This document shows positions 9,341-35,204 of a DNA stretch of 64,000 bases, one piece after another (the first letter of the stretch is position 1; the number at the start of each line of letters is the position of its first letter). The DNA lies in the NCBI RefSeq assembly GCF_009498455.1, contig NZ_CP045644.1, positions 5,707,001 through 5,771,000 of the forward strand, read 5' to 3'. The notes below the pieces were generated by a model. It saw only the letters and a list, made by a program, of their open reading frames with translations. It did not search any database and was not told where the DNA came from. Source of the DNA: Variovorax paradoxus. Lineage in GTDB: Bacteria > Pseudomonadota > Gammaproteobacteria > Burkholderiales > Burkholderiaceae_C. Made by a program: the position numbers and the translations under genes.

Positions 9341-9375
9341 TGCGCGAAATCGTTGTCTTGGTAGAGAAAGCGAAG

Positions 9376-9395
9376 GCGCCGGCAAAGGCCGGCGC
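9376..9395 (-). terminator. GC hairpin between the DUF748 and DUF349 genes
   Basis: Perfect 8-bp stem GCGCCGGC / GCCGGCGC with a 4-base loop. On the minus strand it is followed by a C/T-rich stretch rather than a true T-run, so it is a weak terminator or mRNA-stability hairpin behind the upstream gene. Confidence 0.5.
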
Positions 9396-9501
9396 ACATC
9401 GACATTTTCACCCAGTTGGCGAACGGCCCGCCGAATTCCGTATCGGAACCGCGGCGCGCACCGTTCGACGGGCTGGAAAGGGCCCGCTGGATATATGGCA
9501 A

Positions 9502-9527
9502 GGCGAGGCGAAAAGCCAAGCCCCGCC
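9502..9527 (-). terminator. Imperfect hairpin after the DUF748 stop
   Basis: GGCGAGGC / GCCCCGCC arms with one mismatch, starting 3 bp past the stop of the DUF748 gene. No clear T-run follows on the minus strand. It may end or stabilise that transcript together with the hairpin at 9376-9395. Confidence 0.35.
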
Positions 9528-9529
9528 GG

Positions 9530-12500
9530 CTATTTCATGGTCAGGCTCAGCTCGGCGCCGGGCTTCCAGTCGTTGCCGCTGGCGGTGGTGCGCACGGCCC
9601 CCAAGAACAGGCGCTCGCTCGGCAGCTTCTGCGCCAGCAGGTAGTCGCGCACCACGGCGCCGCGCTCGACCGCGAGCTGGCGCATCGACTCTTCGTCGAC
9701 CGGCACGCTGGCCAGCAGCAGGTTTTCCATTTCCTTCACCGGCAGGTCCTTGGCCAGGCCGACCATGTTGCGCGGCTTGGTGATGTCGGAGCGCTTGTAC
9801 ACGGCCGTGAGCAGCGCGGGGTATTCGGCGTCGGTCACCGGCGGCACCTCGGTGCCGGTCTGGCCGCCGCGCACCGCGACCCGGCGCTTCTCGGCCTGGG
9901 TCAGCTGGCGCAGGCGCTGGCGCTGGTAGGCGTCGCGTTCCTTTTCGAGGCTGGAGGTGCCCACTACGGTCATCTGCAGCGTCGGCCGCTCGGTCAGGGC
10001 CTTCACGACCTTGTCCAGGCTTTCCTTGGCGCCGGCACTGAGCGTCGAACTGCCGGGCTCGAAGGTGATCGCGCTCGAATCGCCGCTGCCGCCACCGCCT
10101 AGCCCGCCGGTCAGCAGGCTGAACGGCGCGGTCACGGCCTTGACGATCAGGTTGACCACGGCCTTCCAGATCAGCGGGCCGATGCTGAACTGCGGATCGT
10201 TGAGCGAGCCGCTGAGTGGCAGGTCGACGTCGATCACACCGTTGCGGTCGGCCAGCAGCGTCACGGCCAGGCGCACGGGCAGGCTGTTGGGCGCGCCGGC
10301 CACCTCGTCGCCGAACTTCAGCTGGTTGAGCACCAGCTTGTTGGTGGCAGTGAGCTGACCGTCGGGCGCGATCTTGTAATTGACGTCCATGCTCATCTTG
10401 CCGCGCTCGATGCCGTGGCCCGCGTAGCGCACCGAGTACGGCGACAGCGGGGCCAGGTCGAGGTCGCGCATCTTGGCGGTGATGTCGAGTTCGAGCGGCT
10501 TGGCCAGCGGGTTGAGCTTGCCGGTGATTTCCAGCGCCGCAGTCTGCTGCGCCTTGCCACGCAGTTCGAGGTCGGCCAGCGCCGGGCGGCCGCCCTGCCC
10601 GTTCGGCGGGTTCGACGAGAACGAACTGAGCTTGCCGGTCAGCTCGCTGAGGTCGGCCGAATAGTTGGGCTTGACGAACAAGTCGGTGAAGTCGATCTTG
10701 CCGTTGACCAGGCTCATCGGACCGAAGTTGATGACCGGCGCCGGGCCGCTGTCGGCTGCGGGCGCTGCAGCCACGGCCGGCGCGGAGGCGACAGGCGCAG
10801 GCTCGGGGGCGCCACCGACCATGGCTTCGGCCGACACCGGCGCACCGCCCGAGGCCCGCTGCGGCGCCGAAGTCGGTGCGCGGGTCGTGGTGGTGGTGCC
10901 GCCCGGGCCCTTCTTCGTGCTGGCTTCGGTGGCGGCAGCGGCCTTCGAGGCCTCTTCGCCCTTCTTGGTCAGGCTCAGCAGGTTGAGGCGGCCCGTGGGA
11001 TCGACGATCACGCGGGCGAAGAAGTCGGTCAGCGTGGTCTCGCGCACGTCGACGGTCGGGGCGGCATTGGGCGCCAGGCTGACCTGCAGGCCGCGCAGGC
11101 TCAGGGTCTTCCAGCTCAACAACTGGCTGTTGCCACGGTCGAAGCCCGGCGATTGGGTCAGCGAGACGCTGTTGGCGCGGAAATCGTCCAGCGCGGTATC
11201 GCCGGCCAGCTTGACGTTCATGCCGGCCGGCGTGGTCGCGTAGCGCACCGTGCCGCGGTAGCTCGCGAAGGCGCGCCGGATGTCCACGTTGAGCGCGTCG
11301 GCGTAGTAGGCCTTGAAGGCATGCGCCGGGAACGACGCCACCTCGAGCCGGCCCTCGGCCGCGAGCGGCTTGAGCACGACGGTGCCCTTGTAGTCGAAGC
11401 GCCCCGGGTCCGCACGGCGGCCCGCGCCGATGCGGCCCGACACCTGCAGCGGCGAGACGGTGTGGGTGTCGGGTGCGATCTTCTGGGCGTGGAGCTTGAA
11501 GGCCGTGACCTCGATCGCCACCGGCGCCGAGCCGGCCTTGTCCGCATAGGACAGGCTGCCGTTGTCCACGGCCAGCGTGCCCAGCGTCAGCGCCCAGGGC
11601 TTGGTGTTGGCATTGGCGCGCGCCGCACCGGCGTCGGCCGGCTTGGGCGCCGCCGCCTTGGCGTTGCCGGCGGGGGTCTTGAGCCAGCGCTCGAACATCC
11701 AGCGCTTCTCGTTGTCGCGCTCGATGCTCACCTTGGGGTTGGTCGCGGTGAACGACGCGATGTTCAAGGTGTGCTTCGTCATGTCGACCTCGGCATCGAC
11801 CAGCTCGAAGCGGCCGACGCTGGCCAGCGCGGTCTTGGCCTGGGTCAGCGCCAGACCGTCGGCGGCCAGGCGGCGCGCCTTGAACTTCAGGTCGGGCTGG
11901 GCCCAGGACACGTCGATCTGGCCGCTGAGCTTGCCGTCGAGCGTGGGTTCCAGGCTCTGCGCCAAGTACGGCGCGGCCAGCGACAGCGGCAGCGCGTCGA
12001 CCTCGGTCTGCACGTCGGCGACCTTGTCGGTCGCCGTGCCCTTGAACTTCAGCGTGGCGCCGGAAACGGCGGTGCTGCCGTCGAACTGCGCGGGCTTTTC
12101 CATGGGCCAGGTGACGGCCGTGAGGTTGATGCCGAGGTCGGTGAGGTCGATGGATGCGCCGGGCTTGACGGTCTCGTCGCGCCAGCCGATGCGTCCGCCG
12201 TCGAGCGCGATCTTGTCGACCTGCACCTTGAGCTTGGGCTTCTCGGCCACCGGCTTTCCGTTCGGCGCGCTGGCGGCGGGTGCGGGCAGTGGCGCCACCT
12301 TTTCGGCCGCGCCGGTCGCAGGGTTCGTGGCCATCAGGTTGAGCTGGCCGGACGCGTCACGTGCCACCACCAGCTGCGGCTTGACCAGCGCGACCTCGCT
12401 CAGGTGGAACACCGACTCCAGCGGGCGCACGTCGGCCAGCGCCAGCTTGAGCGAGTCGAAGGCCAGCAGGTCGCGTCCGCGGGCGTCGCCCAGCTTGGCG

Positions 12501-23748: not shown

Positions 23749-24672
23749 ATGTCGCTCGCCCTGGATCGCCCCGAGTTCGCGCCGCCACCGCAGCGCGGCA
23801 CGCCCCGCGCGGTGGTGCTCGCGCTCATTGCCCACGCGCTGCTGATCGCCGCCCTCACCTGGGGTGTGCGCTGGCGCAGCGAAGCCGACGACGGCGCGGT
23901 CGATGCCGAGCTGTGGTCCACCACGGTGATGCAGGCCGCCCCGCGCCTGTCGGTGCCGGAGCCGCCGGCCCCGTGCCCGCACCACCGCCGCCCGCACCCG
24001 CGCCGCCCCACCGCCTCCCCGGCCGTCAAGCCGCCCGAGCCGGCGCCGGCGCCTGCGCCCGACATCGCGCTGGAGCGCGAGAAGAAGCTCAAGGAACAGA
24101 AAGCGCAGAAGGAGCGCGAACTCGAACAGCAGCGCCAGCAGCAACAAAAGAAGAAAGAGCTCGAGGCCAAGGAACGCGCCGAAGACGAAGCCGAGCGCAA
24201 GAAAGAGCAGCAGAAGAAACTGGCCGAGCAGAAGAAGCAGCAGGAAGCCGAGGCCAAGCAGGCCGAAGCGAAGAAGGCTGAAGCGGCCGCCAAGCAGGCG
24301 GCTGCCGACCGCGCCGCGACGCTCAAGCGCATGCAGGGCATGGCCGGTGCCAGCGGCAGCGACGATGCCAAGGGCAACGCGCTGCGCTCGTCCGGCCCGT
24401 CGAGCGGCTATGCCGGCCGCATCGCGGCCGCCGTGCGCCCGAACATCACCTTCCCCGATGCAGACAGCGTGAACGGCAACCCGGAAGCCGAGTTCGAAGT
24501 GAGGCTCGCACCCGACGGCACCATCGTCGGCGTCAAGCTCGCCAAGTCCAGCGGCCTGCCGGCCTGGGACGAAGCCGCCGAGCGCGGTCTTCGCAAGACC
24601 GACAAGCTGCCGCGCGACACGGACGGCCGCATCTTCCCGTCGCTCATCGTCACGCTCAAGCCCAAGCGCTGA
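23749..24672 (+). CDS. tolA: TolA, periplasm-spanning Tol-Pal protein
   Basis: A 307-residue TolA with an N-terminal membrane helix (about 21-41, AVVLALIAHALLIAALTWGV), a Pro-rich linker, a long Lys/Glu/Ala/Gln helix (about 105-195, repeats such as KEQKAQKERELEQQRQQQQ) and a TonB-like C-terminal domain (NITFPDADSVNGNPEAEFEV). It connects the TolQR motor to TolB/Pal. Odd point: residues ~75-88 read PCPHHRRPHPRRPT, while the +1 frame of the same bases reads VPAPPPPAPAPP, the normal Pro/Ala linker. Two compensating single-base indels, real or sequencing error, would explain this. tolB and pal do not follow. Confidence 0.93.
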   Translation: MSLALDRPEFAPPPQRGTPRAVVLALIAHALLIAALTWGVRWRSEADDGAVDAELWSTTVMQAAPRLSVPEPPAPCPHHRRPHPRRPTASPAVKPPEPAPAPAPDIALEREKKLKEQKAQKERELEQQRQQQQKKKELEAKERAEDEAERKKEQQKKLAEQKKQQEAEAKQAEAKKAEAAAKQAAADRAATLKRMQGMAGASGSDDAKGNALRSSGPSSGYAGRIAAAVRPNITFPDADSVNGNPEAEFEVRLAPDGTIVGVKLAKSSGLPAWDEAAERGLRKTDKLPRDTDGRIFPSLIVTLKPKR

Positions 24673-24688
24673 TCCAAGCGCTGGGGCC

Positions 24689-24715
24689 GCAATCACCCAC
24701 ATCGTGGGTGATTGC
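24689..24715. terminator. Perfect palindrome between tolA and the M48 gene
   Basis: 12-bp arms GCAATCACCCAC / GTGGGTGATTGC around an ATC loop, 16 bp after tolA. No T-run follows, so it could be a tol-operon terminator of low U content or an operator for the next gene, whose start is 61 bp away. Confidence 0.5.
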
Positions 24716-24775
24716 AAGCGACGTCACCCGCTCGTTTAGGATCGTCGGCAACTCATTGTTGCTGGCGCTCCTGAC

Positions 24776-26023
24776 ATGGTCGACTCTTTCCCTGCCGTTC
24801 GCCTCCAAGACCTGACGCCGCTGCCCTACCAGCAGGCACTGGCCGCCCACCTTCAGGCGAACGAACCCGAGGCCTGGCGCTGGGCCGCCTCCGCCGAAGC
24901 GCGCGAAGAACACACGGCCGCCATGCGTGCCGAATTGCTGCGCAGTGCCTACCGGCTCAACGCGGACGCGCACCCCGATCTGCATGCCGACGCCACCCTG
25001 GCCGCGCAGCGGCTGGGCGTCACCGCGCGCATCACGCTCTACCAGGCCCCATCCGGCGACGGCGCGGCGATGAATGCGGCCATCTACGTCGTGCCGGGCG
25101 AAGCGCACATCGTGCTCTCGGGCCCGCTGCTCGAACGGCTGCAGGGCCCGGAGCGCCAGGCCGTGCTCGGCCACGAACTCGCGCACTACCTGCTGTGGGA
25201 ACGCGACGGCGGCAAGCACCACGTCGTCGACCGCCTGCTGCACGCCACGGCGGCCGACCCGCGCGCCGACGCGAGCCACCTGCAGGCCGCGCGGCGCCAT
25301 GCGCTGTACACCGAGGCGTTCGCCGACCGCGGCGGCTGCGTGGCCTGCGGCGCGCTCGAACCCGCCGTGAGCGCGCTCATCAAGATCGAGACCGGCCTCA
25401 CGCAGGTCAACGTGGCGAGCTACCTCGCGCAGGCCGAGGAGATCTGCGCCGACCCCAACAACAAGGCGCTGCAGACGCGCGGCGTGAGCCACCCCGAGGT
25501 GTTCGTGCGCGCCCGCGCGCTGCGCCTGTGGACCGGCCGCGAGCACGACGCCGACGAATGGCTGGCCGCCGCGCTCGAAGGCCCGCTCGACCTGGGCACG
25601 CTCGACATGCTCGGCCAGCAGCGCGTGAGCGCCCTCACGCGCGCCACCCTCGCGCAGCTGCTGCAACGGCCCGTGCTGCAGTCGGAATCGCTGCTCGCGC
25701 ATGCGCGGCGCTTCTTCCCCGACTTCGCGCCGCCCACGTCGGCGATGCCGCCGCCCGAGCCCGCGCCCGCCGGCCTGCACGGCTACCTGGCCAGCGTGCT
25801 GGTCGACTTCGTCGCCGCCGATCCCGAGATGGACGACGTCACCCTCGCCGCCACGCTCGGCCTGGCCGATGCGCTGGACTGCGCCCAACCCTTCGAACAG
25901 CGCGTGCTGAAAGACCTGGGTCTTTCCAAGCGCAACTTCACCCGCGTCAAACGCGACGCCGCCGCCCTGCTCGACAAGGCCGCCACCACCCCGTCGTCTT
26001 CTTCGCAGGCCGCCGCCGCATGA
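24776..26023 (+). CDS. M48-like zinc metallopeptidase, partner of the giant helicase
   Basis: A 415-residue soluble protein with a zinc-peptidase signature: HELAH at 133-137 and a likely third ligand E180 in YTEAFADRGG, the spacing seen in M48-type enzymes. It has no signal peptide or membrane helix, unlike HtpX or BepA. After the catalytic part the C-terminal half (about 240-400) is helical with Ala/Leu/Arg and ends in KATTPSSSSQAAAA. The peptidase substrate is unknown. The stop overlaps the start of the following helicase gene (ATGA), so the two proteins are probably made together and act in one system. The upstream DNA palindrome and a 100-bp gap set it apart from the tol genes. Confidence 0.75.
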   Translation: MVDSFPAVRLQDLTPLPYQQALAAHLQANEPEAWRWAASAEAREEHTAAMRAELLRSAYRLNADAHPDLHADATLAAQRLGVTARITLYQAPSGDGAAMNAAIYVVPGEAHIVLSGPLLERLQGPERQAVLGHELAHYLLWERDGGKHHVVDRLLHATAADPRADASHLQAARRHALYTEAFADRGGCVACGALEPAVSALIKIETGLTQVNVASYLAQAEEICADPNNKALQTRGVSHPEVFVRARALRLWTGREHDADEWLAAALEGPLDLGTLDMLGQQRVSALTRATLAQLLQRPVLQSESLLAHARRFFPDFAPPTSAMPPPEPAPAGLHGYLASVLVDFVAADPEMDDVTLAATLGLADALDCAQPFEQRVLKDLGLSKRNFTRVKRDAAALLDKAATTPSSSSQAAAA

Positions 26024-29000
26024 CCCTCGCCCCCGCCCCGCTCCTGCAACTGCTCGCCACCGCCGAGGCCCACGGCGGCCTGCAGACCGACGACGTGCTC
26101 AAGCTCGTGCTGCCGCTGCTGTGCGAGGTCTCGGCCCTGCACGAACTCGGCAACGTCGCCGCGCTCGGCAGCGCCTTCGCCTACCGCGTGACCGACGCGC
26201 CCGCCGAACCCGCGCTGGCGCTGGCCCAGCCCGACGGCACCGCGCCGCGCCGCCACCCCGAGGCCATCGCGCCGCTCGAACAACCCGCCGCCTCCGTGCT
26301 GCGCGTGGTCGGCGAAACGCGACTGACCGTCGACGCCGAGGCCGACGTCGCGCTCGAAAACCTCGCGGTCATGGCCGATGCCGGGCCCGACACGGTGCCC
26401 ACGCGCCCCGTCTACCTGCCCGGCTACACCGCGTGGGAGCTGCGCCTGGGCCACCACGATGCGCTCGGCGACATCCTGTGCCTGGGCCAGGTGCTGGCCA
26501 GCCTGTCGTGCGGGCTCGACTTCACCGACAGCGACGACCTCACCCGCTTCGCCACGCACCGCGGCAACCTGTTCGAGCTGAACCGCCGGCTGCACCCCGT
26601 GGTGGCCGCCGTGATCTTCGAGATGACCGCGCTCGACCGCCACGAGCGCGCGCGCGACCTGCCCTCGGTCATCCGCCGCCTCGAGACCTACCGCGACCAG
26701 CCCGTCGACCTCGGCCTGGACCGCATCGCACCCGCAAGAGACGGCGCGGGCCAGCGCCGCCAGGCGATCCAGCTGCACCTGCGCGACCGGCTGTTCGACC
26801 TGTCGCGGCGCAACCGCCTGCTGTACTTCAAGCCGACGCAGGCGCATGTGAACCTCACCATCGCCAGCGTGCCGCTGGTGGTCGACCTGAACAGCATCCG
26901 CACCGACCAACTGTGCGTGTGGGATGGCCGCTTTGCCATTGACATCGCCAGCTGCGACCCCGTGCCGCTGGCGCGCTGGCTGCGTTTCGAAGACCAGCCC
27001 TACCTGCCCGGCGCGCTCGACCGCATCCTGCAGGAGGCACGGCGCGACCGGGCCGAGTACGGCTTCTCGCAGCTGTCGCTGGTGGTGGCCTTCCTGCGCT
27101 GGCACAACCTCAAGGAGGGCGAGGCCGAACGGGCCGAGCGCATCGCCTCGCCGCTGCTGATGCTGCCGGTGGAGCTCACGCGCAAGAAAGGCGTGCGCGA
27201 CCAGTACCTGCTCGAAGCCTCGGCCAGCGAGGCGCAGGTGAACCCCACGCTGCGCCACCACCTGCGCCAGCTCTACGGCATCGCGTTGCCCGAGACGGTG
27301 GACCTGCGCGAAACCTCGCTCGAACAGTTCCACGCGCAGCTGTCGGCGCAGATTGCGCAGAGCGAGCCCGGCGTGCAGCTGCGGCTCGTGAAGCAGCCCG
27401 AGATCGCCGTGATGCACCAGCGCGCGCGCCAGCGGCTCGAACAGTTCAAGCGCCGCACCCGCGTGCGCTCGCCCTCGGCGGTGCCGGTGGCCTCGCAAGA
27501 CTTCAGCTACGCGCAGGACGACTTCCGCCCGCGCGGGCTGCAGCTGTTCCATGCGCGCGTGCGCCCCGTGCCGCTGCCGGTGCGCGAGGCCGTCGGCGGC
27601 GCGCCGCAGCCGCGCGCGCCGCAGATGGCCGCTACCGTTGCCGACGACACCGAGCGCAAGACCTTCGCGCTGCGCGACAGCAGCGGCAACCCCTACCAGT
27701 GGGACGTCGACCTCACGGCCGTGACGCTGGGCAACTTCAACCATCGCAAGATGTCGCTGGTGCGCGACTACTCGGGGCTGGCCGAATCCGACCTGGCCAG
27801 CGAAGCCTTCGACCGCGTGTTCTCGCTGCAGCCGCGCCGCGTCGACGCCGAGACACCGCCCGCCCTGCCGCTGGCCGACCAGTGGCCCGTGGTGCAGGCC
27901 GACGCCACGCAGACCGCCGCGGTGGCGCTGGCGCGCACGGGCACCAGCTACATCATCCAGGGCCCGCCCGGCACGGGGAAGTCGCAGACCATCACCAACC
28001 TGATCGCCGACTACGTGGGCCGCGGCCAGCGCGTGCTGTTCGTCTGCGAGAAGCGCGCCGCCATCGACGTCGTGTTCCACCGCCTGCGCCAGCAGGGGCT
28101 GGACGAGCTGTGCTGCATGATTCACGACTCGCAGGGCGACAAGAAGGCCTTCGTGCAGAACCTGCGCAAGACCTACGAGCTGTGGCTCGAAGCGCCCGGC
28201 ACGCTGGCGCAGGAAAGCACCGAGCGCACGCAGGTGCTCGACGCCATGGACCTCGACCTGCGCGCGCTCGAACGCTTCGATGCCGCCATGCACGACGTGC
28301 CCGAGCACATCGCGGTGACGTTGCGCGAATTGCTGTCGCGGCTGGTCGCGCTCAAGGCCAGCGACCCGTCGCTCACGCCGCTGCAGGCCGAGGCGCTGCC
28401 CGCCTTCGCCGCATGGCGCCGGCATGCGGAGCTGGTGTCGCGCCTGCACCTGGCCGTGACCGAAAGCCTGGGCGCGCCGAGCTTCGCGCAGCATGTGTTC
28501 GCGCAGCTCGCCCCGTCGCTGCTCGCGCAGGAGAAACCGCTCGCGCGGCTGGTCGAACGCAGCGAACGCGCCATCGACCTGAGCGCGCCTTGCCGCGATG
28601 CGCTGGTCGACGCCTGGCCACCGCTGGCCGAGGCCGGCGTGCTGTGGCGCGACGCGCTGGCCGTGGTGGCCGATGCGCGCAGCGTCGCCTCGCTGGCCGC
28701 GCGCGGCCAGCTCGCGCTGCTCGACGCCGCGCACCCGAGCAGCCTCGCGCTCGGCGCCGCCCTGAACGACAAGCGCACGCTGCAACAGGCGCTCGACGCG
28801 CAGCTGCAACGCACCGCCCACTGGCGCGACAAGCTCTCGCCCGGCGACACCGAAGCCGCGCTCGCGCAGGCCCGCACGCAGCAAGGTTCGCTGCTGCGCT
28901 GGCTGCAGCCCTCGTGGTGGCGCCTGTCGGGCGAACTCAAGCGCCGCTACGACTTCGCCGCGCATGCCGTGCGTCCGCAGCCCAGCCAGATCCTCGAAGA

Positions 29001-31236
29001 CCTGCGCGCCGAACAGGCCGCGCGCACCGCGCTCGACCAACAGGCGGCGCGCATCGAAGCCGACTACGGCTGCACCGATGCCGATGCCTTCGCGCAGCAG
29101 TTGCAGGCCATGCGCGGCATCGACGCCGGCGCCGGCCTGCGCGCGGCGTTCCACGCCCACCTGCGCACCGACGCGGCCCGCCGCAGCGTCGAACAGCTGG
29201 TCGCCGCCGCACCGCGCGTCGACACGCTCGACGCCCTCTGGCACGACCTGCTGCACGACGCCGGCGCGCAGCCACTGGACGCGCTCGACGCGCTGGCACG
29301 CACGCTGCGCGACCAGGCCGATGCGCTGCCGTCGGTGCTGCAGCCGTTGCAGGAACTGGCCGATGCCGACCCGGCCGTGGCCGCCGCGCTGCGCACGCTG
29401 CCGCTGCCGCCCGAGGCGATCGAGTACGCCGTCGCGCGCGAAGGGCTGGAGCGCGTCTACCGCACCGAGCGCTGGCTGCCGCGCTTCGACGGCGCCACGC
29501 TCGCGCGCCATGCACAGCGCCTGGGCGAAGGCGAACGCAAGCTGCTCGAACGCAACGCACGCACGCTCGCCGCCGCGGTGCGCCAGCGCTTCCGCGACCA
29601 TGTGCAGAAGAGCGCCCTGCCCGCCAGCCAGCTCGACGCCGACGGCAAGGTCTTCAAGAAGAGCTACAACGCGGGCCGCCGCGAGCTCGAGCACGAGTTC
29701 GGCAAGACCATGCGCTACAAGGCGATCCGCGAACTCGCCAGCGGTGACACCGGCCGCGTGGTGCGCGACATGAAACCGATCTGGCTCATGAGCCCGCTGT
29801 CGGTGTCCGACACGCTGCCGCTCGCGGCCGACCTGTTCGACGTGGTGATCTTCGACGAGGCCAGCCAGATTCCAGTGGAAGAAGCCGTGCCCGCGCTGTA
29901 CCGCGCGCCGCAGATCATCGTGGTGGGCGACGAGATGCAGTTGCCGCCGACCAGCTTCTTCTCGTCAGCCCGCGACGCCGAGGAAGACACCGTCACCGTG
30001 GAAGGCGACGATGCAGAGAACGGCGAAGAAGCCGAACGCATCGCCGTCGTGCTCGATGCCGACAGCCTCTTGAACCAGGGTGCGCGCAACCTGCCGGCCA
30101 CGCTGCTGGCCTGGCACTACCGCAGCCGCTACGAGTCGCTCATCGGTTTTTCGAACGCGGCCTTCTACGCGGGCAACCTGTACACCATTCCCGATCGCAG
30201 CCTGCCCGCGCCCGAGCGCGGCGAGATCGTGGTGCAGTCGCGCAGCCCGACCGACGAGTCCGTGAAGGCGCAGGTCGACGCCCTGCTCTCGCGCGCCATC
30301 AGCTTCCACCGCGTGGCCGACGCCGTGTACGAGAACCGCATCAACGACGGCGAGGCGCGCCACATCGCGCAGCTGGTGCGCGAGTTGCTGAAGCGCGAGA
30401 CCGGGCGCAGCCTGGGCATCGTTGCGTTCTCCGAAGCGCAGCAGGGCGAGATCGAGGAAGAGCTGAACGCGCTCGGCGCGGTCGATGCCGACTTTGCGGC
30501 ACGGCTCGAGGCCGAGTACGTGCGCGAGGAAGACGACCAGTTCTGCGGCCTCTTCATCAAGAACCTGGAGAACGTGCAGGGCGACGAGCGCGACATCATC
30601 ATCCTCAGCATCTGCTACGGCCCCAACCCCGAGGGCCGCATGCTGATGAACTTCGGCCCCATCAACCAGCGCGGCGGCGAGAAGCGGCTGAACGTGATCT
30701 TCAGCCGCGCCAAGCACCACATGGCGGTGGTCTCGACCATCCGCCACGAGGCGATCACCAACGACCACAACGAGGGCGCGGCCGCGCTGAAGAACTTCCT
30801 GCGCTATGCCGAGTGCCTGTCACGCGGCGACGAGGACACGGCGCGGCGCGTGCTCGAAGGCATGAACCCGCTCGCGCGCGGCCACGTGGCGCGGCAGGCG
30901 CGCACGGACGACGTCACGGCGCAGATCGCGCAGGCGCTGCGCGCACGCGGCCATGCGGTGGACGAACAGGTGGGGCAGTCGCGTTTTCGCTGCGACCTCG
31001 CGGTGCGCGCATCGGGCCAGGGGCACTATGCGCTGGGCATTCTGGTGGACGGTGCGGCGCAGGACGGCCACCGCCACAACGTGCTGGAGCGCTATGTGTC
31101 GCGCCCCCGCATCCTCGATGCTTTCGGCTGGCAGGTGATGCAGGTGCTGGCCAAGGACTGGCTGCACGCCCCCGAGGCCGTGCTCGACCAGGTCGAGCAG
31201 GCCATCGCAAAGGCCGGGGTCAGCGCAGGACGCTGA
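26020..31236 (+). CDS. Giant DUF4011/SF1 helicase with C-terminal nuclease-like domain
   Basis: A 1,738-residue protein. The DUF4011 signature RDRLFDLSRRNRLLYFK lies near 255-272. The DNA2/NAM7-type superfamily 1 helicase has Walker A GPPGTGKSQT at 648, Walker B VVIFDEASQIP near 1276-1286, GDEMQLPPTSFF near 1303, QGDERDIIILS near 1520 and GGEKRLNVIFSRAK near 1551-1564. About 600 mostly helical residues separate motifs I and II. The last ~90 residues resemble the restriction-endonuclease-like MTES_1575 fold: D1659 (FRCDLAV) is kept, but the usual LGIECDG reads LGILVDG, so the catalytic Glu seems lost. Helicases of this architecture occur in several anti-phage systems; whether this one defends the cell is an inference. 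Its tail overlaps the convergent OB-fold gene by 17 bp. Confidence 0.88.
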   Translation: MTLAPAPLLQLLATAEAHGGLQTDDVLKLVLPLLCEVSALHELGNVAALGSAFAYRVTDAPAEPALALAQPDGTAPRRHPEAIAPLEQPAASVLRVVGETRLTVDAEADVALENLAVMADAGPDTVPTRPVYLPGYTAWELRLGHHDALGDILCLGQVLASLSCGLDFTDSDDLTRFATHRGNLFELNRRLHPVVAAVIFEMTALDRHERARDLPSVIRRLETYRDQPVDLGLDRIAPARDGAGQRRQAIQLHLRDRLFDLSRRNRLLYFKPTQAHVNLTIASVPLVVDLNSIRTDQLCVWDGRFAIDIASCDPVPLARWLRFEDQPYLPGALDRILQEARRDRAEYGFSQLSLVVAFLRWHNLKEGEAERAERIASPLLMLPVELTRKKGVRDQYLLEASASEAQVNPTLRHHLRQLYGIALPETVDLRETSLEQFHAQLSAQIAQSEPGVQLRLVKQPEIAVMHQRARQRLEQFKRRTRVRSPSAVPVASQDFSYAQDDFRPRGLQLFHARVRPVPLPVREAVGGAPQPRAPQMAATVADDTERKTFALRDSSGNPYQWDVDLTAVTLGNFNHRKMSLVRDYSGLAESDLASEAFDRVFSLQPRRVDAETPPALPLADQWPVVQADATQTAAVALARTGTSYIIQGPPGTGKSQTITNLIADYVGRGQRVLFVCEKRAAIDVVFHRLRQQGLDELCCMIHDSQGDKKAFVQNLRKTYELWLEAPGTLAQESTERTQVLDAMDLDLRALERFDAAMHDVPEHIAVTLRELLSRLVALKASDPSLTPLQAEALPAFAAWRRHAELVSRLHLAVTESLGAPSFAQHVFAQLAPSLLAQEKPLARLVERSERAIDLSAPCRDALVDAWPPLAEAGVLWRDALAVVADARSVASLAARGQLALLDAAHPSSLALGAALNDKRTLQQALDAQLQRTAHWRDKLSPGDTEAALAQARTQQGSLLRWLQPSWWRLSGELKRRYDFAAHAVRPQPSQILEDLRAEQAARTALDQQAARIEADYGCTDADAFAQQLQAMRGIDAGAGLRAAFHAHLRTDAARRSVEQLVAAAPRVDTLDALWHDLLHDAGAQPLDALDALARTLRDQADALPSVLQPLQELADADPAVAAALRTLPLPPEAIEYAVAREGLERVYRTERWLPRFDGATLARHAQRLGEGERKLLERNARTLAAAVRQRFRDHVQKSALPASQLDADGKVFKKSYNAGRRELEHEFGKTMRYKAIRELASGDTGRVVRDMKPIWLMSPLSVSDTLPLAADLFDVVIFDEASQIPVEEAVPALYRAPQIIVVGDEMQLPPTSFFSSARDAEEDTVTVEGDDAENGEEAERIAVVLDADSLLNQGARNLPATLLAWHYRSRYESLIGFSNAAFYAGNLYTIPDRSLPAPERGEIVVQSRSPTDESVKAQVDALLSRAISFHRVADAVYENRINDGEARHIAQLVRELLKRETGRSLGIVAFSEAQQGEIEEELNALGAVDADFAARLEAEYVREEDDQFCGLFIKNLENVQGDERDIIILSICYGPNPEGRMLMNFGPINQRGGEKRLNVIFSRAKHHMAVVSTIRHEAITNDHNEGAAALKNFLRYAECLSRGDEDTARRVLEGMNPLARGHVARQARTDDVTAQIAQALRARGHAVDEQVGQSRFRCDLAVRASGQGHYALGILVDGAAQDGHRHNVLERYVSRPRILDAFGWQVMQVLAKDWLHAPEAVLDQVEQAIAKAGVSAGR

Positions 31237-31591
31237 TGACGCGCTTCACGTCGAGTTCGGTCTTGCCGGTGAGCCGGTCCTTGTCGAACTCGCCGCTGAG
31301 CTCGACGCGCACCTTGTCGTCGATCTTCACGCCCGGAGGGAAGTACTTGGCGTCGATCTCGACCTTGATGCGGCCCGTGTCGTCGGCAAAGGTGTAGTGC
31401 TCGCCGCCGTCGTGCGAGACGATGAAGCCGCGCACCGTGGCGTGCTGGTCGTCTTGGCCGGTTTCGAGCAACTGCTTGACCGTCAGGTTCGGCACCGACG
31501 TCGGGCCGGCGTACTGGGCCCAGGCCGCGGCGATGGGCAGCGCCACGCCGAACGTCAACGCGGTGGTCTTGAGGATCTTCTTGAAATGCAT
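31220..31591 (-). CDS. Exported OB-fold (BOF/YgiW-type) protein
   Basis: A 123-residue protein with a signal peptide (MHFKKILKTTALTFGVALPIAAAWA, cut before QYAGP) and a single bacterial OB-fold domain with the family pattern LETGQDDQHATVRGFIV, YTFADDTGRIKVEID and LSGEFDKD. Members such as YgiW are periplasmic and linked to stress tolerance; the ligand is unknown. ATG 31591 is chosen because the signal peptide begins there. It is oriented like dnaE and lies 95 bp downstream of it, separated by a hairpin, so it may be partly co-transcribed. Confidence 0.88.
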   Translation of the reverse strand: MHFKKILKTTALTFGVALPIAAAWAQYAGPTSVPNLTVKQLLETGQDDQHATVRGFIVSHDGGEHYTFADDTGRIKVEIDAKYFPPGVKIDDKVRVELSGEFDKDRLTGKTELDVKRVISVLR

Positions 31592-31640
31592 GCGGTCGTT
31601 TCTCCTGTGAGTGGCCCAAGGCCAGGTTGCAACAACAGAT

Positions 31641-31683
31641 GGACCGCGCACAGGCCTGGGGGTTCCCCAGGCTCGCGCGGTCC
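31641..31683 (-). terminator. Compound hairpin after dnaE
   Basis: Outer 9-bp stem GGACCGCGC / GCGCGGTCC (31641-31649, 31675-31683) enclosing an inner CCTGGGG / CCCCAGG stem. It starts 3 bp beyond the dnaE stop. The minus-strand sequence after it is only moderately T-rich (ATCTGTTGTTGC), so it is a likely but not ideal terminator. Confidence 0.65.
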
Positions 31684-31685
31684 GA

Positions 31686-34600
31686 TCAATCGTAGATGAC
31701 CTGTGCCTTGCCCGCTTCGGCCTGCGCGGTCCAGCTCGCAAGCGCCGCATCGGTCGGGAAGAACTTGGCGCGCTCGCCCAGTTGCAACTCGACCTGCGCC
31801 CCGCCCCGCGCCATCGACAGGCGCACGGGCAGGCCGTGCACCAGATCGCCGACCTCGGTCTGCTCGGTGCGCGCCGGAAAGTCTTTCAGGAGGCGCGCGA
31901 TCTCGGGCACCTTGCCGTTGACTGCCACGCGCAGGAACTTGCCGAAGCGGCAGCGCGCCGAGGCCAAGTCCCACACCTGCTGCACCTGGAATCGCGCCTC
32001 GAAGCCACCGCGCGCGGGCTGCAGCTTGCCGCTCACGATGACGAGCTCGTCGTCCTTCAGCGTGTTGCGGTTGGCGTTGATGAGCGCTTCGTCGGCCGTG
32101 GCGTCGATCGACTCCGACTTGTCGTCGAGCTTGAAGATCGCCAGCCGGCCGCGCTGGCCGTTGATCACGCGGAAGTCGCTCACGATGCCGGCAATGACCT
32201 GCGGGTCGCGGCTGTCGAGCAGGTCGCCGATCTCGCGCTTGCAGAAGCGCCGCACCTCGTGCGCCACCTCGTCGAACAGGTGGCCCGAGAGGTAGAAGCC
32301 GACGGCCGTCTTCTCGAAGGTCAGGCGCTCTTTCACGCCCCAGGGCGTGGCGTCGACCAAGTCGGGCTCCTGCGTGGCCGAGCCGTGTTCGCAGTCGCCG
32401 AAGATGTCGACCTGCGACGCATTGGCCGCCGTGGCGTTGGCGAACTCGAAGGCGCGGTCGACCGAGGCAATGAGCGATGCGCGGTTCTGCTGAATCGCGT
32501 CGAACGCGCCGGCCTTGATGAGTGCTTCGACCGTGCGCTTGTTGATGCGCTGGCGGTCGATGCGCACGCAGAAGTCGTACAGGCTCTTGAACGGCCCGCC
32601 CTCTTCGCGCGCACGCACCACGGCCTCGACCGCGAGCTGGCCCGTGCCCTTCACGGCGCCCAGGCCGTAGCGGATGATCTTGTTGGTGACCGGCTCGAAA
32701 CGGTAGTTGCCGCGGTTCACGTCCGGCGGCTCGAAGGTGATGTTGAAGTTCTTCTGGGCGTCTTCGAACAAGAGCTTGAGCTTGTCCGTGTCGTCCATTT
32801 CCACGGTCATATTCGCGCAGAAGAACTCGGCCGTGTAGTGGACCTTGAGCCAGCCCGTGTGGTACGCCAGCAGCGAGTAGGCGGCGGCGTGCGACTTGTT
32901 GAAGCCGTAGCCCGCGAACTTCTCCATCAAGTCGAAGATTTCGTCGGCCTTGTCCTGCACGATGCCGTGCGTGGCCAGCGCGCCCGCGCGGAACTTCTCG
33001 CGGTGCTCGGCCATTTCCTCGAGCTTCTTCTTGCCCATCGCGCGGCGCAGCAAGTCGGCGCCGCCGAGCGAGTAGCCGCCCAGGATCTGCGCGGTCTGCA
33101 TCACCTGCTCCTGGTAGACCATGATCCCGTAGGTCTCGGAGAGCATCTCGGCCACGGCCGGGTGCGGGTACTCCACGTCTTCGCGGCCGTGCTTGCGCGC
33201 CACGAAACTGGGAATCAGGTCCATCGGGCCCGGGCGGTACAGCGCGTTCAGCGCGATCAGGTCTTCCAGGCGCGTGGGCCGCGCGTCCTTCAGCATGCCC
33301 TGCATGCCGCGCGATTCGAACTGGAACACCGCCTCGGTCTTGCCGTCGGAGAACAGGCGGTAGGTCGGCCCGTCGTTCAGCGGGATGTTCTCGAACGCGA
33401 AGTTCTCCTGGCCCTTGTGGCGCTTCATGATGAACTCGCGCGCAATCTCCAGGATGGTGAGCGTCGCAAGACCCAAAAAGTCGAACTTCACGAGGCCGAT
33501 GGCTTCGACGTCGTCCTTGTCGTACTGGCTCACGGCCGATTCGCTGCCGGGCTGCTGGTACAGCGGGCAGAAGTCGGTGAGCTTGCCCGGTGCAATGAGC
33601 ACGCCGCCGGCGTGCATGCCGATGTTGCGGGTCATGCCTTCGAGCTTCTGCGCGAGCTCGACCAGCATGCGGACTTCTTCTTCCTTCTCGATGCGCTCCG
33701 CGAGCTGCGGCTCCATCTCGATGGCGTAGTTGTTCTTGTCGCCTTCGATCTTGGTCGCGGGCGGATATTGCAGCGTGACCGACATGCCCGGCTTGTTCGG
33801 AATCAGCTTGCTGATGCCGTCGCAGAACATGTAGCTCATGTCGAGCACGCGGCCCACGTCGCGGATGGCCGCGCGCGCGGCCATGGTGCCGAAGGTGGCG
33901 ATCTGGCTCACGGCGTTGCGGCCGTACTTGTCCTTCACGTAGTCGATCACGCGGTCCCGGTTGCCCTGGCAGAAGTCGATGTCGAAGTCGGGCATCGAGA
34001 CGCGTTCGGGGTTCAGGAAACGTTCGAACAGCAGCTTGTATTCGAGCGGATCGAGGTCGGTGATCTTCAGCGCGTAGGCCACAAGCGAGCCCGCACCCGA
34101 GCCCCGGCCCGGGCCCACGGGGCAGCCGTTTTCCTTGGCCCACTTGATGAAGTCGCCCACGATCAGGAAGTAGCCGGGGAAGCCCATGTTCAGGATCGTG
34201 TTGATCTCGAACTCGAGGCGTTCCACGTAACGCGGCCGTTCGGCCTCGCGCTTGGCTTCGTCGGGGTACAGGTGCTTCAGCCGCACCTCGAGGCCCTCGA
34301 ACGATTCCTGGCGGAAGAACTCGTCGATCGGCATGCGCACGCCTTCGGCGATGAAGGGCGTCGGAAAGTCGGGCAGCTGCGGCTTGCCGAGCACCAGCGT
34401 GAGGTTGCAGCGCTTGGCGATCTCGACCGTGTTGGCCAGCGCGCTCGGCACGTCAGCGAACAGCGCCTGCATCTCGGCGCTCGACTTGAAGTACTGCTCT
34501 TCGGTGAACTTGCGCACGCGGCGCGGGTTGCCCAGAATTTCGCCTTCGGAAATGCACACGCGCGCCTCGTGCGCTTCGTAGTCCTGGCGTTCGGCGAACT

Positions 34601-35204
34601 GCACTGGGTGCGTGGCGACCACCGGCAGCTTCAGGCGGGCCGCGAGCTTCACCGCGGCAATCACGTGCGGCTCGTCTTCGGGGCGGCCGGCGCGTTGCAG
34701 CTCGATGTAGAAGCGGTGCGGGAACATGCCCGCGAGCTGCAGCGCCAGCTCGGCGGCGCGCTCTTCCTGGCCTTGCAGCAGCGGCTGGCCCAGCGGCCCG
34801 GCCTGTGCACCCGACAGCGCGATCAGGCCGCCCTGCAGCTCCTGCAGCCATTCGAGCTTGCAGGCCGCCTGCGACTGGCCGCGGCTCACGTTCTGCGTCC
34901 AGGCGCGGGCCAGCAGCTCCGACAGGTTGAGGTAGCCCTCGGTGCTCTGCACCAGCAGGATGAGGCGGGTCAACGCGCCGGGCTCCTTGCCCAGCCCGTC
35001 GATGAAGATTTCAGCGCCGATGACGGGCTTGACGCCCTTGCCCCGGCCCTGCTTGTAGAACTTGACCGCCCCGAACAGGTTGTTCAGGTCGGTGATGGCC
35101 AATGCGGGCTGCTTGTCGGCAGCGGCGGCCTTGATGACTTCGTCGATTCGATTCGTGCCATCGACGACGGAAAACTCGGTGTGCAGACGCAGGTGAACAA
35201 ACAT
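31686..35204 (-). CDS. dnaE: DNA polymerase III alpha subunit
   Basis: The 1,172-residue catalytic subunit of the replicative polymerase. The N-terminal PHP domain begins FVHLRLHTEFSVVDG, and the catalytic aspartates lie in MPDFDIDF (D406 and D408 by count); GRGSGAGSLVAYALKITDLDPL is the conserved palm segment. A helix-hairpin-helix, OB-fold (near 950-1060) and C-terminal tau-binding region complete the type I DnaE layout at normal length. The ATG is only 6 bp downstream of a TACAAT hexamer, with no room for a Shine-Dalgarno, so translation may be leaderless. Divergent from trhO. Confidence 0.98.
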   Translation of the reverse strand: MFVHLRLHTEFSVVDGTNRIDEVIKAAAADKQPALAITDLNNLFGAVKFYKQGRGKGVKPVIGAEIFIDGLGKEPGALTRLILLVQSTEGYLNLSELLARAWTQNVSRGQSQAACKLEWLQELQGGLIALSGAQAGPLGQPLLQGQEERAAELALQLAGMFPHRFYIELQRAGRPEDEPHVIAAVKLAARLKLPVVATHPVQFAERQDYEAHEARVCISEGEILGNPRRVRKFTEEQYFKSSAEMQALFADVPSALANTVEIAKRCNLTLVLGKPQLPDFPTPFIAEGVRMPIDEFFRQESFEGLEVRLKHLYPDEAKREAERPRYVERLEFEINTILNMGFPGYFLIVGDFIKWAKENGCPVGPGRGSGAGSLVAYALKITDLDPLEYKLLFERFLNPERVSMPDFDIDFCQGNRDRVIDYVKDKYGRNAVSQIATFGTMAARAAIRDVGRVLDMSYMFCDGISKLIPNKPGMSVTLQYPPATKIEGDKNNYAIEMEPQLAERIEKEEEVRMLVELAQKLEGMTRNIGMHAGGVLIAPGKLTDFCPLYQQPGSESAVSQYDKDDVEAIGLVKFDFLGLATLTILEIAREFIMKRHKGQENFAFENIPLNDGPTYRLFSDGKTEAVFQFESRGMQGMLKDARPTRLEDLIALNALYRPGPMDLIPSFVARKHGREDVEYPHPAVAEMLSETYGIMVYQEQVMQTAQILGGYSLGGADLLRRAMGKKKLEEMAEHREKFRAGALATHGIVQDKADEIFDLMEKFAGYGFNKSHAAAYSLLAYHTGWLKVHYTAEFFCANMTVEMDDTDKLKLLFEDAQKNFNITFEPPDVNRGNYRFEPVTNKIIRYGLGAVKGTGQLAVEAVVRAREEGGPFKSLYDFCVRIDRQRINKRTVEALIKAGAFDAIQQNRASLIASVDRAFEFANATAANASQVDIFGDCEHGSATQEPDLVDATPWGVKERLTFEKTAVGFYLSGHLFDEVAHEVRRFCKREIGDLLDSRDPQVIAGIVSDFRVINGQRGRLAIFKLDDKSESIDATADEALINANRNTLKDDELVIVSGKLQPARGGFEARFQVQQVWDLASARCRFGKFLRVAVNGKVPEIARLLKDFPARTEQTEVGDLVHGLPVRLSMARGGAQVELQLGERAKFFPTDAALASWTAQAEAGKAQVIYD

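Follow-up and report, generated by a model that had tools for sequence, protein, structure and literature searches.

In the genome of Variovorax paradoxus (7.29 Mb, a single contig, NZ_CP045644.1), two overlapping genes encode an M48-type metallopeptidase and a very large superfamily 1 (SF1) helicase with a DUF4011 domain, and together they form a tight two-gene module. They lie in the 64,000-nucleotide stretch analysed here, from position 5,707,001 to 5,771,000 (the window, in whose coordinates all positions are given). The reading that we somewhat favour is that the two products would act as one machine for phage defence, with the helicase as sensor of aberrant DNA and with an effector that has changed from a nuclease to a metallopeptidase. 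The computed features that carry it are the tight pairing, the fusion of both proteins in single chains, an intact peptidase site, the loss of a nuclease glutamate and constrained helicase motifs; a physical complex of the two proteins, DNA as trigger, proteolysis as output and phage defence as purpose would be its further elements. The pair itself is laid out as follows.

24776..26023, forward strand: M48-type metallopeptidase gene (P0001), 415 amino acids, with a Pfam M48 match
26020..26023, forward strand: ATGA, the 4-bp overlap of the peptidase and helicase genes
26020..31236, forward strand: SF1 helicase gene (P0002), 1,738 amino acids

A profile built from 27 peptidases retrieved 79 relatives in named genomes, spanning Pseudomonadota, Verrucomicrobiota, Planctomycetota, Myxococcota and Actinomycetota. 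The helicase gene was found downstream on the same strand in 78 of the 79 loci, the 79th contig ending inside the peptidase gene, and the gap between the two genes ranged from -13 to +144 bp in 74 loci, 61 of which showed an overlap of 1-13 bp (starts chosen by script). A first-pass annotation of the window had described the 4-bp overlap with a 1,738-residue SF1 DUF4011 helicase, which the ATGA and the Pfam matches confirm, and had named rare adjacency in relatives as an objection to a two-gene system; adjacency in 74/79 loci removes that objection. In Massilia H-1 (locus L103) the helicase gene is broken and adjoins an open peptidase frame, and in another genome (G085, contig C10, locus L209) the helicase is split over two frames, the peptidase frame again being open.

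Because the 79 loci had been found through the peptidase, genomes were also searched for each gene separately. The genomes with a full-length peptidase were the same as those with a full-length helicase: 8 of 61 (counting the window's own genome, 36 others of the genus and 24 of the order), 3 of 369 in a class sample (including the split helicase of G085) and 3 of 398 in a phylum sample, these samples overlapping in G000 and two of them also in G032. Weaker peptidase matches were seen in 1 (E 3.7e-4), 12 and 2 genomes of the three samples, respectively; for the helicase, the further genomes with weaker matches, most of them confined to the C-terminal part, numbered 5, 13 and 43. Fusions of the two proteins account for three of these weak-match genomes, and elsewhere the weak peptidase and helicase matches fall in different genomes. 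Peptidase and helicase distances are highly correlated (Mantel r 0.921 across 40 loci, a value reached by none of 2000 permutations), as expected of any two co-inherited genes. No third conserved gene emerged from the 79 loci: flanks shared within Variovorax or Pseudomonas apart, the top neighbour families were present in 8 loci each, at scattered places.

The association goes as far as single chains. Peptidase and helicase share one open reading frame in three genomes (two of the class sample, one of the phylum sample), with frames of 1896, 1953 and 2074 amino acids comprising M48, TerB-like, helicase and REase regions, and with DUF4011 confirmed by Pfam in both fusions scanned. When the M48-TerB part of one fusion was used to search a database for proteins of 0.55-1.75 times its length, 210 proteins came out at E <= 1e-10 among 8000 candidates scored; among the 120 of them that were listed, Walker A was present in 115 and HExxH in 115. 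In a tree of the second motor half, the pair helicases form one clade (support 100/100) and the fusions another (100/99). Forcing both into one clade gave an approximately unbiased (AU) test p-AU of 0.036, a marginal value obtained for a group named after the first tree, with five rows dropped, 16 rows kept for the pair and long branches involved; pair and fusion are perhaps of independent origin. Two fusions (P0182 and P0197) carry an extra exonuclease domain (PF00929) beside the M48 region, with HELGH at 448, which is a possible further effector. Next to the fusion of genome G619 lies a gene for an OLD-type AAA/TOPRIM protein (L256:6508-8025), a kind of protein known from defence systems, on a contig of 114,693 bases whose size suggests a plasmid or second replicon.

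The peptidase carries the following features.

25172..25186, forward strand: HELAH zinc-binding/catalytic motif, residues 133-137
25313..25327, forward strand: third-ligand region EAFAD, with E180 and D184
25568..25975, forward strand: C-terminal TerB-like region, residues ~265-400, aligned to the distant relatives L213 and L218

Its active site is intact and looks active as judged from its residues, since H133, E134, H137, E180 and D184 are kept in 75/75 pair peptidases. E180 and D184 sit within TEAFADRG, and their role as third-ligand region is presumably that known from M48 peptidases. The Pfam Peptidase_M48 model (PF01435) scores 30.9 bits, above its cut-off of 20.3, and the largest 19-residue hydropathy mean is 1.38, so that no membrane helix is evident; the soluble M48-like peptidase with HELAH and E180 that the first-pass annotation had placed at 24776 is accordingly borne out. 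The protein resembles M48 peptidases such as HtpX in its HExxH, E and D residues and in its Pfam match. Unlike HtpX, it has no evident membrane helix, a TerB-like C-terminus and a helicase partner, and the best HtpX model of NCBIfam gives it 19.1 bits against a cut-off of 341. Pfam TerB did not match the window peptidase. Of six relatives scanned, stand-alone or paired, the four paired peptidases gave no TerB match either, and the distant L213 and L218 scored 26.6 and 33.2 against a cut-off of 24.4. Stand-alone M48 proteins of ~400 amino acids occur in ten class-sample genomes (L212-L221), with no helicase of the pair's family within the stretch read; both members of this set that were scanned carry TerB, and the effector may have originated in the wider family that this set would represent.

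The helicase is organised around a two-part motor, preceded by DUF4011.

26020..26754, forward strand: N-terminal kinase C-lobe-like domain, residues 1-245, weak profile matches, probably a pseudokinase
27004..27264, forward strand: DUF4011, Pfam match at residues 329-415
27961..27984, forward strand: Walker A GPPGTGKS, residues 648-655, invariant in 42/42 representatives
28240..29589, forward strand: poorly conserved insert, residues ~741-1190, with a ratio of non-synonymous to synonymous substitution rates (dN/dS) of 0.14-0.37
29851..29865, forward strand: motif II FDEAS, residues 1278-1282, with D, E, A and S in 42/42 and F in 41/42
30085..30735, forward strand: AAA_12, second RecA-like half of the motor, residues 1356-1572

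Pfam scores were 58.8 bits for DUF4011, 60.5 for AAA_11, 58.5 for AAA_12 and 63.0 for the C-terminal REase_MTES_1575. Among the 42 representatives, 37 of the 41 motif positions counted are invariant and the other four are kept in 39-41, a conservation that, together with that of the peptidase site, excludes chance. The first-pass annotation had singled out an insert of ~600 residues. The spacing is present, Walker A (648) and motif II (1278) being about that far apart, but it is nothing special to this protein; it is a family trait, because the ProA and PDC-S37 models of defence helicases align across it. Across four Variovorax comparisons the peptidase had a dN/dS of 0.09-0.32 and the helicase one of 0.11-0.28.

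Further domains were seen at the two ends of pair helicases. For residues 1-245, 17 of 18 matches among profiles of Protein Data Bank (PDB) structures were Ser/Thr kinases, all of them weak (E 0.2-0.95). Pfam Pkinase, with E 0.0082 at best, matched this domain in 5 of 41 members but not in the window helicase, whose domain is probably a pseudokinase. At the other end, a WGR-type domain is found in 46 of 71 pair helicases (38 by pattern and 8 more by eye), and a Pfam check of five tails returned WGR in four and BRCT instead in the fifth (L102). Both are domains that bind DNA breaks. The WGR-type tail is absent from all Variovorax pair helicases, the window copy included: the 15 Variovorax copies and 8 others stop shortly past the REase domain, and one (L095) has a different tail.

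The pair helicases differ from their peptidase-free relatives in the state of this REase domain.

30922..31206, forward strand: degenerate REase_MTES_1575 (Vsr-like) domain, residues 1635-1729, by Pfam
31042..31044, forward strand: L1675, at the place of the Glu of IECDG in peptidase-free relatives

The peptidase-free DUF4011 helicases recovered in the same searches carry the signature D...IECDG..YH...ARDRDR, whose Glu we take to be catalytic. This Glu is present at 42/42 peptidase-free places (counted after six duplicates had been dropped, two of the 42 being identical in sequence) and at 0/46 peptidase-coupled rows, which comprise the 42 pair representatives, G085 and three fusions; for helicase matches of the phylum sample, the motif counts refer to those whose locus was read. 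In the coupled rows the Glu is replaced by L (34), M (4), V (3), Q (3) or F (2), and most of them have an altered ARDRDR-type arm as well. The larger set of fusions agrees: among the 114 of the 120 listed that entered the alignment, Glu is absent in all (one by a gap) and the first Asp in 96. Searching the peptidase-free loci with the peptidase profile gave no match over 1.5 to ~10 kb of flanking sequence per side, as far as the contigs reach, and one genome (G030, locus L023) holds both a pair helicase and a separate DUF4011-type helicase, free of peptidase, that keeps the Glu. In four Variovorax comparisons the dN/dS of the degenerate domain was 0.06-0.24; being thus under purifying selection, it seems to be kept for a role other than cutting. 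Hence the nuclease-like tail announced by the first-pass annotation exists as a domain, but having lost its Glu it is probably inactive as a nuclease. This degeneration favours the division of labour that the same annotation had put forward, the helicase as sensor and the peptidase as effector.

In the machine that we propose, the helicase would be an ATP-driven sensor of aberrant DNA, made of the motor, DUF4011 and the kinase-like N-terminal domain, while the Vsr-like domain would no longer cut and would be retained as a scaffold. The WGR module of many relatives (once BRCT) may attach the protein to DNA ends or nicks. On encountering broken DNA or intermediates of phage replication, the helicase would switch on its partner, the soluble M48-TerB metallopeptidase, which would be the live effector and would cleave one or more host or phage proteins, thereby stopping growth or the phage. 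The pair may have descended from DUF4011 helicase-nucleases with a nuclease effector, the effector having been exchanged. The lack of a recurrent third gene comparable to HamM, the pro-nuclease of a Hachiman variant discussed below, favours direct proteolysis as output. A bolder version, conceivable although we would not yet lean towards it, is a whole branch of DUF4011-helicase immunity based on proteases, where the nuclease was retired perhaps twice, in the pair and in the fusion, leaving M48-TerB as sole effector with no pro-nuclease.

The pair is accessory and patchy within its genus, and its insertion site could be delimited.

23749..24672, forward strand: TonB-like gene, bordering the insertion site on the left
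31686..35204, reverse strand: dnaE-type gene, bordering the insertion site on the right

A whole-genome search found the pair in 8 of 37 genomes of the genus, and 6 of 21 further genomes in which the TonB-dnaE site was read also have it (three more of that sample were not read). Wherever the flanks were read, the pair lies between the TonB-like gene and dnaE. In 21 pair-less genomes the matched ends of these two genes are only 13-110 bp apart, which indicates gain or loss at one site. Outside the genus, the peptidase was found in 0 of 10 genomes of the same family. The 14 Pseudomonas loci can be sorted by their flanks into 11 groups, and in the helicase tree the phyla are mixed within the pair clade; both observations fit a horizontal spread of the pair. 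The GC content of the pair is 71.5%, that of its sides 67.4 and 68.0%. A tRNA scan of the window found none; across 40 loci scanned, 5 had a tRNA, and insertion at tRNA sites was rejected.

The interval between TonB and dnaE (24673-31685 in the window) is a variable site in Variovorax. An extra gene family stands between TonB and the pair in 13 of 15 named Variovorax loci and is absent from the window; in L025 this extra gene (8209-9936) encodes a penicillin-binding protein. Convergent with the helicase is a BOF-domain gene on the reverse strand (31220-31750), whose called frame overlaps the helicase end by 17 bases. By similarity, a BOF gene adjoins some pair loci and some pair-less loci too.

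Several results weigh against a defence machine of this kind. The Variovorax pair sits between housekeeping genes, namely riboflavin genes and ExbB/ExbD/TonB-like genes on the left and the BOF protein and the dnaE-type polymerase on the right. In a PADLOC comparison, 14 families were matched for the 144 nearest genes (two per side, 184 before dereplication) and 38 for 145 genes from the fifth outwards, Variovorax, the three planctomycetes described below, L079 and L103 being left out. This control is weak, consisting of one set from the same loci, with both sets within 10 kb and counted as families rather than proteins, and many of the 25 farther families listed (of 38) represent one PD-T4-6 match. 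It nevertheless gives no support to the defence-island reading, nor to the enrichment near defence genes that the first-pass annotation had proposed to look for. That annotation had also stated that family-wide conservation with no link to defence and no phage phenotype would count against it: conservation is patchy (peptidase 0/10 outside the genus), but a defence association was indeed not found. In addition, none of the curated cut-offs of the NCBIfam defence families was reached by the helicase. In three planctomycete loci, 7.5-9 kb with five or six other genes separate peptidase and helicase, among them, in L057, genes for a P450 and an iron alcohol dehydrogenase; a duplicate peptidase upstream of the planctomycete helicases was considered and rejected, the gene in L057 being that dehydrogenase. 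HExxH is missing from five fusions (P0174, P0194, P0200, P0235 and P0240), all of which also lack the Glu; apart from P0194, they are still matched by the M48 profile. Finally, P0001 had no match on plasmid or phage records and the peptidase profile gave 23 pattern hits in viral contigs, none of them confirmed, in searches that would probably have missed a fused gene; P0002 gave only partial, distant matches, on 347 plasmids. A mobile-element reading was rejected on these grounds.

The main rival is that the pair repairs DNA-protein crosslinks or blocked forks: the helicase would translocate to the lesion and the peptidase would digest the protein trapped there, as an accessory analogue of SPRTN-type repair with no part in immunity. 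We consider it unlikely, even though the housekeeping neighbours and the missing defence enrichment would suit it, as would WGR and BRCT modules, which generally fit lesion binding. The peptidase comes close to the SprT-like model of Pfam and yet misses its cut-off (24.8 versus 25.6), and it keeps E180/D184 in 75/75 sequences, a third ligand that we take to be of M48 type and not of SprT type. The patchy presence of the pair also speaks against this reading, as do the annotated kin of the helicase, which are defence proteins, and the LexA-like boxes, found upstream of 4/74 loci and in 4/74 control stretches. With no enrichment of such boxes, SOS control was likewise rejected.

It is more doubtful still that the peptidase is a maturation or activating protease, which would cut the helicase or a separate pro-enzyme to free a nuclease, as protease-HamA does with HamM. 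Activation of a pro-nuclease by a protease is on record for helicase systems in PMC12799240, the Vsr-like domain is under purifying selection, and the fused gene of L256 adjoins an OLD-type AAA/TOPRIM gene. Against this stand the loss of Glu in 46/46 coupled rows, and of both acids in most fusions, and the finding that, leaving aside the flanks that Variovorax loci have in common, no third gene was seen with the pair in over 8 of 79 loci.

Least probable, in our opinion, is a nuclease still active with a rearranged site, the peptidase only restraining or recycling the helicase: D1659 (the first Asp) is kept in 36/42 and D1677 in 41/42 representatives, and a His within 8 residues past the second Asp in 27/46 coupled rows recalls Vsr, which uses a His and is active without a Glu at the equivalent place, so that Glu loss alone does not prove a dead nuclease in unfused pairs, but the universal loss of Glu in coupled rows, the mostly rewritten ARDRDR-type arm and the loss of the first Asp as well in 96/114 fusions oppose it.

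The helicase-sensor and peptidase-effector reading would give a widespread, uncharacterised gene pair a concrete and testable role. If true, a helicase-activated zinc metallopeptidase would be a new kind of output, and the exchange of a nuclease for a protease effector would seem to recur in the evolution of helicase sensors, here with a helicase and a protease from families other than those of Hachiman. The nature of the peptidase substrate may, moreover, show where phage growth or the host cell is vulnerable.

As to known systems, the annotated kin of the helicase are listed as defence proteins, which suggests phage defence. PADLOC matched PDC-S37 (1.6e-208), Hhe (8.2e-95) and MkoA (1.7e-33), and NCBIfam matched the anti-phage ProA (NF058533, E 5.7e-205). 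The best PDC-S37 stretch covers positions 217-1046 of a 1550-position model, for which no cut-off is given, and corresponds to the motor (residues ~560-1390); ProA aligns with residues 559-1732, that is, the motor and the REase region. The window helicase scores 683.9 bits against the ProA equivalog cut-off of 1500, two relatives 714 and 691 and two fusions 522 and 544, the ProA match of the fusions starting only past the M48-TerB part. Unlike the window pair, the ProA and PDC-S37 models include no peptidase match, and their best stretches omit the first ~560 residues. The helicase is also aligned over motor and REase region with Hhe (NF042953), named a DUF4011 anti-phage protein by NCBIfam, with 465.4 bits against an equivalog cut-off of 2000; Hhe corresponds to "Gao Hhe" in PMC11291487. 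The literature available to us was open-access, subscription papers being mostly outside it, and searches of it brought up no paper on the anti-phage ProA and no name or description for an M48-DUF4011 pair. The system that the first-pass annotation had called undescribed is therefore so in its coupling to a peptidase, not in the helicase alone, whose superfamily PADLOC and NCBIfam already list.

Mokosh type I, which has a kinase-helicase architecture, resembles the window helicase through MkoA. It is distinguished by its PLD nuclease, no Pfam match to PLD being found in either protein of the pair, whose kinase-like domain is degenerate and weakly supported. In Pseudomonas aeruginosa, a large DUF4011 gene forms a core flank of a defence hotspot, according to PMC10250203. 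Neither HamA (DUF1837) nor HamB of Hachiman was among the Pfam and PADLOC matches of either protein, and the pair differs from the HamMAB variant in its zinc peptidase, its SF1 DUF4011 helicase and the lack of a recurrent third gene. The Hachiman helicase senses DNA damage and controls the effector, as stated in PMC12278908. According to PMC12799240, trypsin-like protease-HamA fusions lack the nuclease motif in virtually all cases, and the protease-HamA activates a third protein, the pro-nuclease HamM. Hachiman in its HamMAB variant would thus parallel the pair in logic, both combining a helicase sensor with a separable effector, and in both the gain of a protease goes together with the loss of the nuclease motif.

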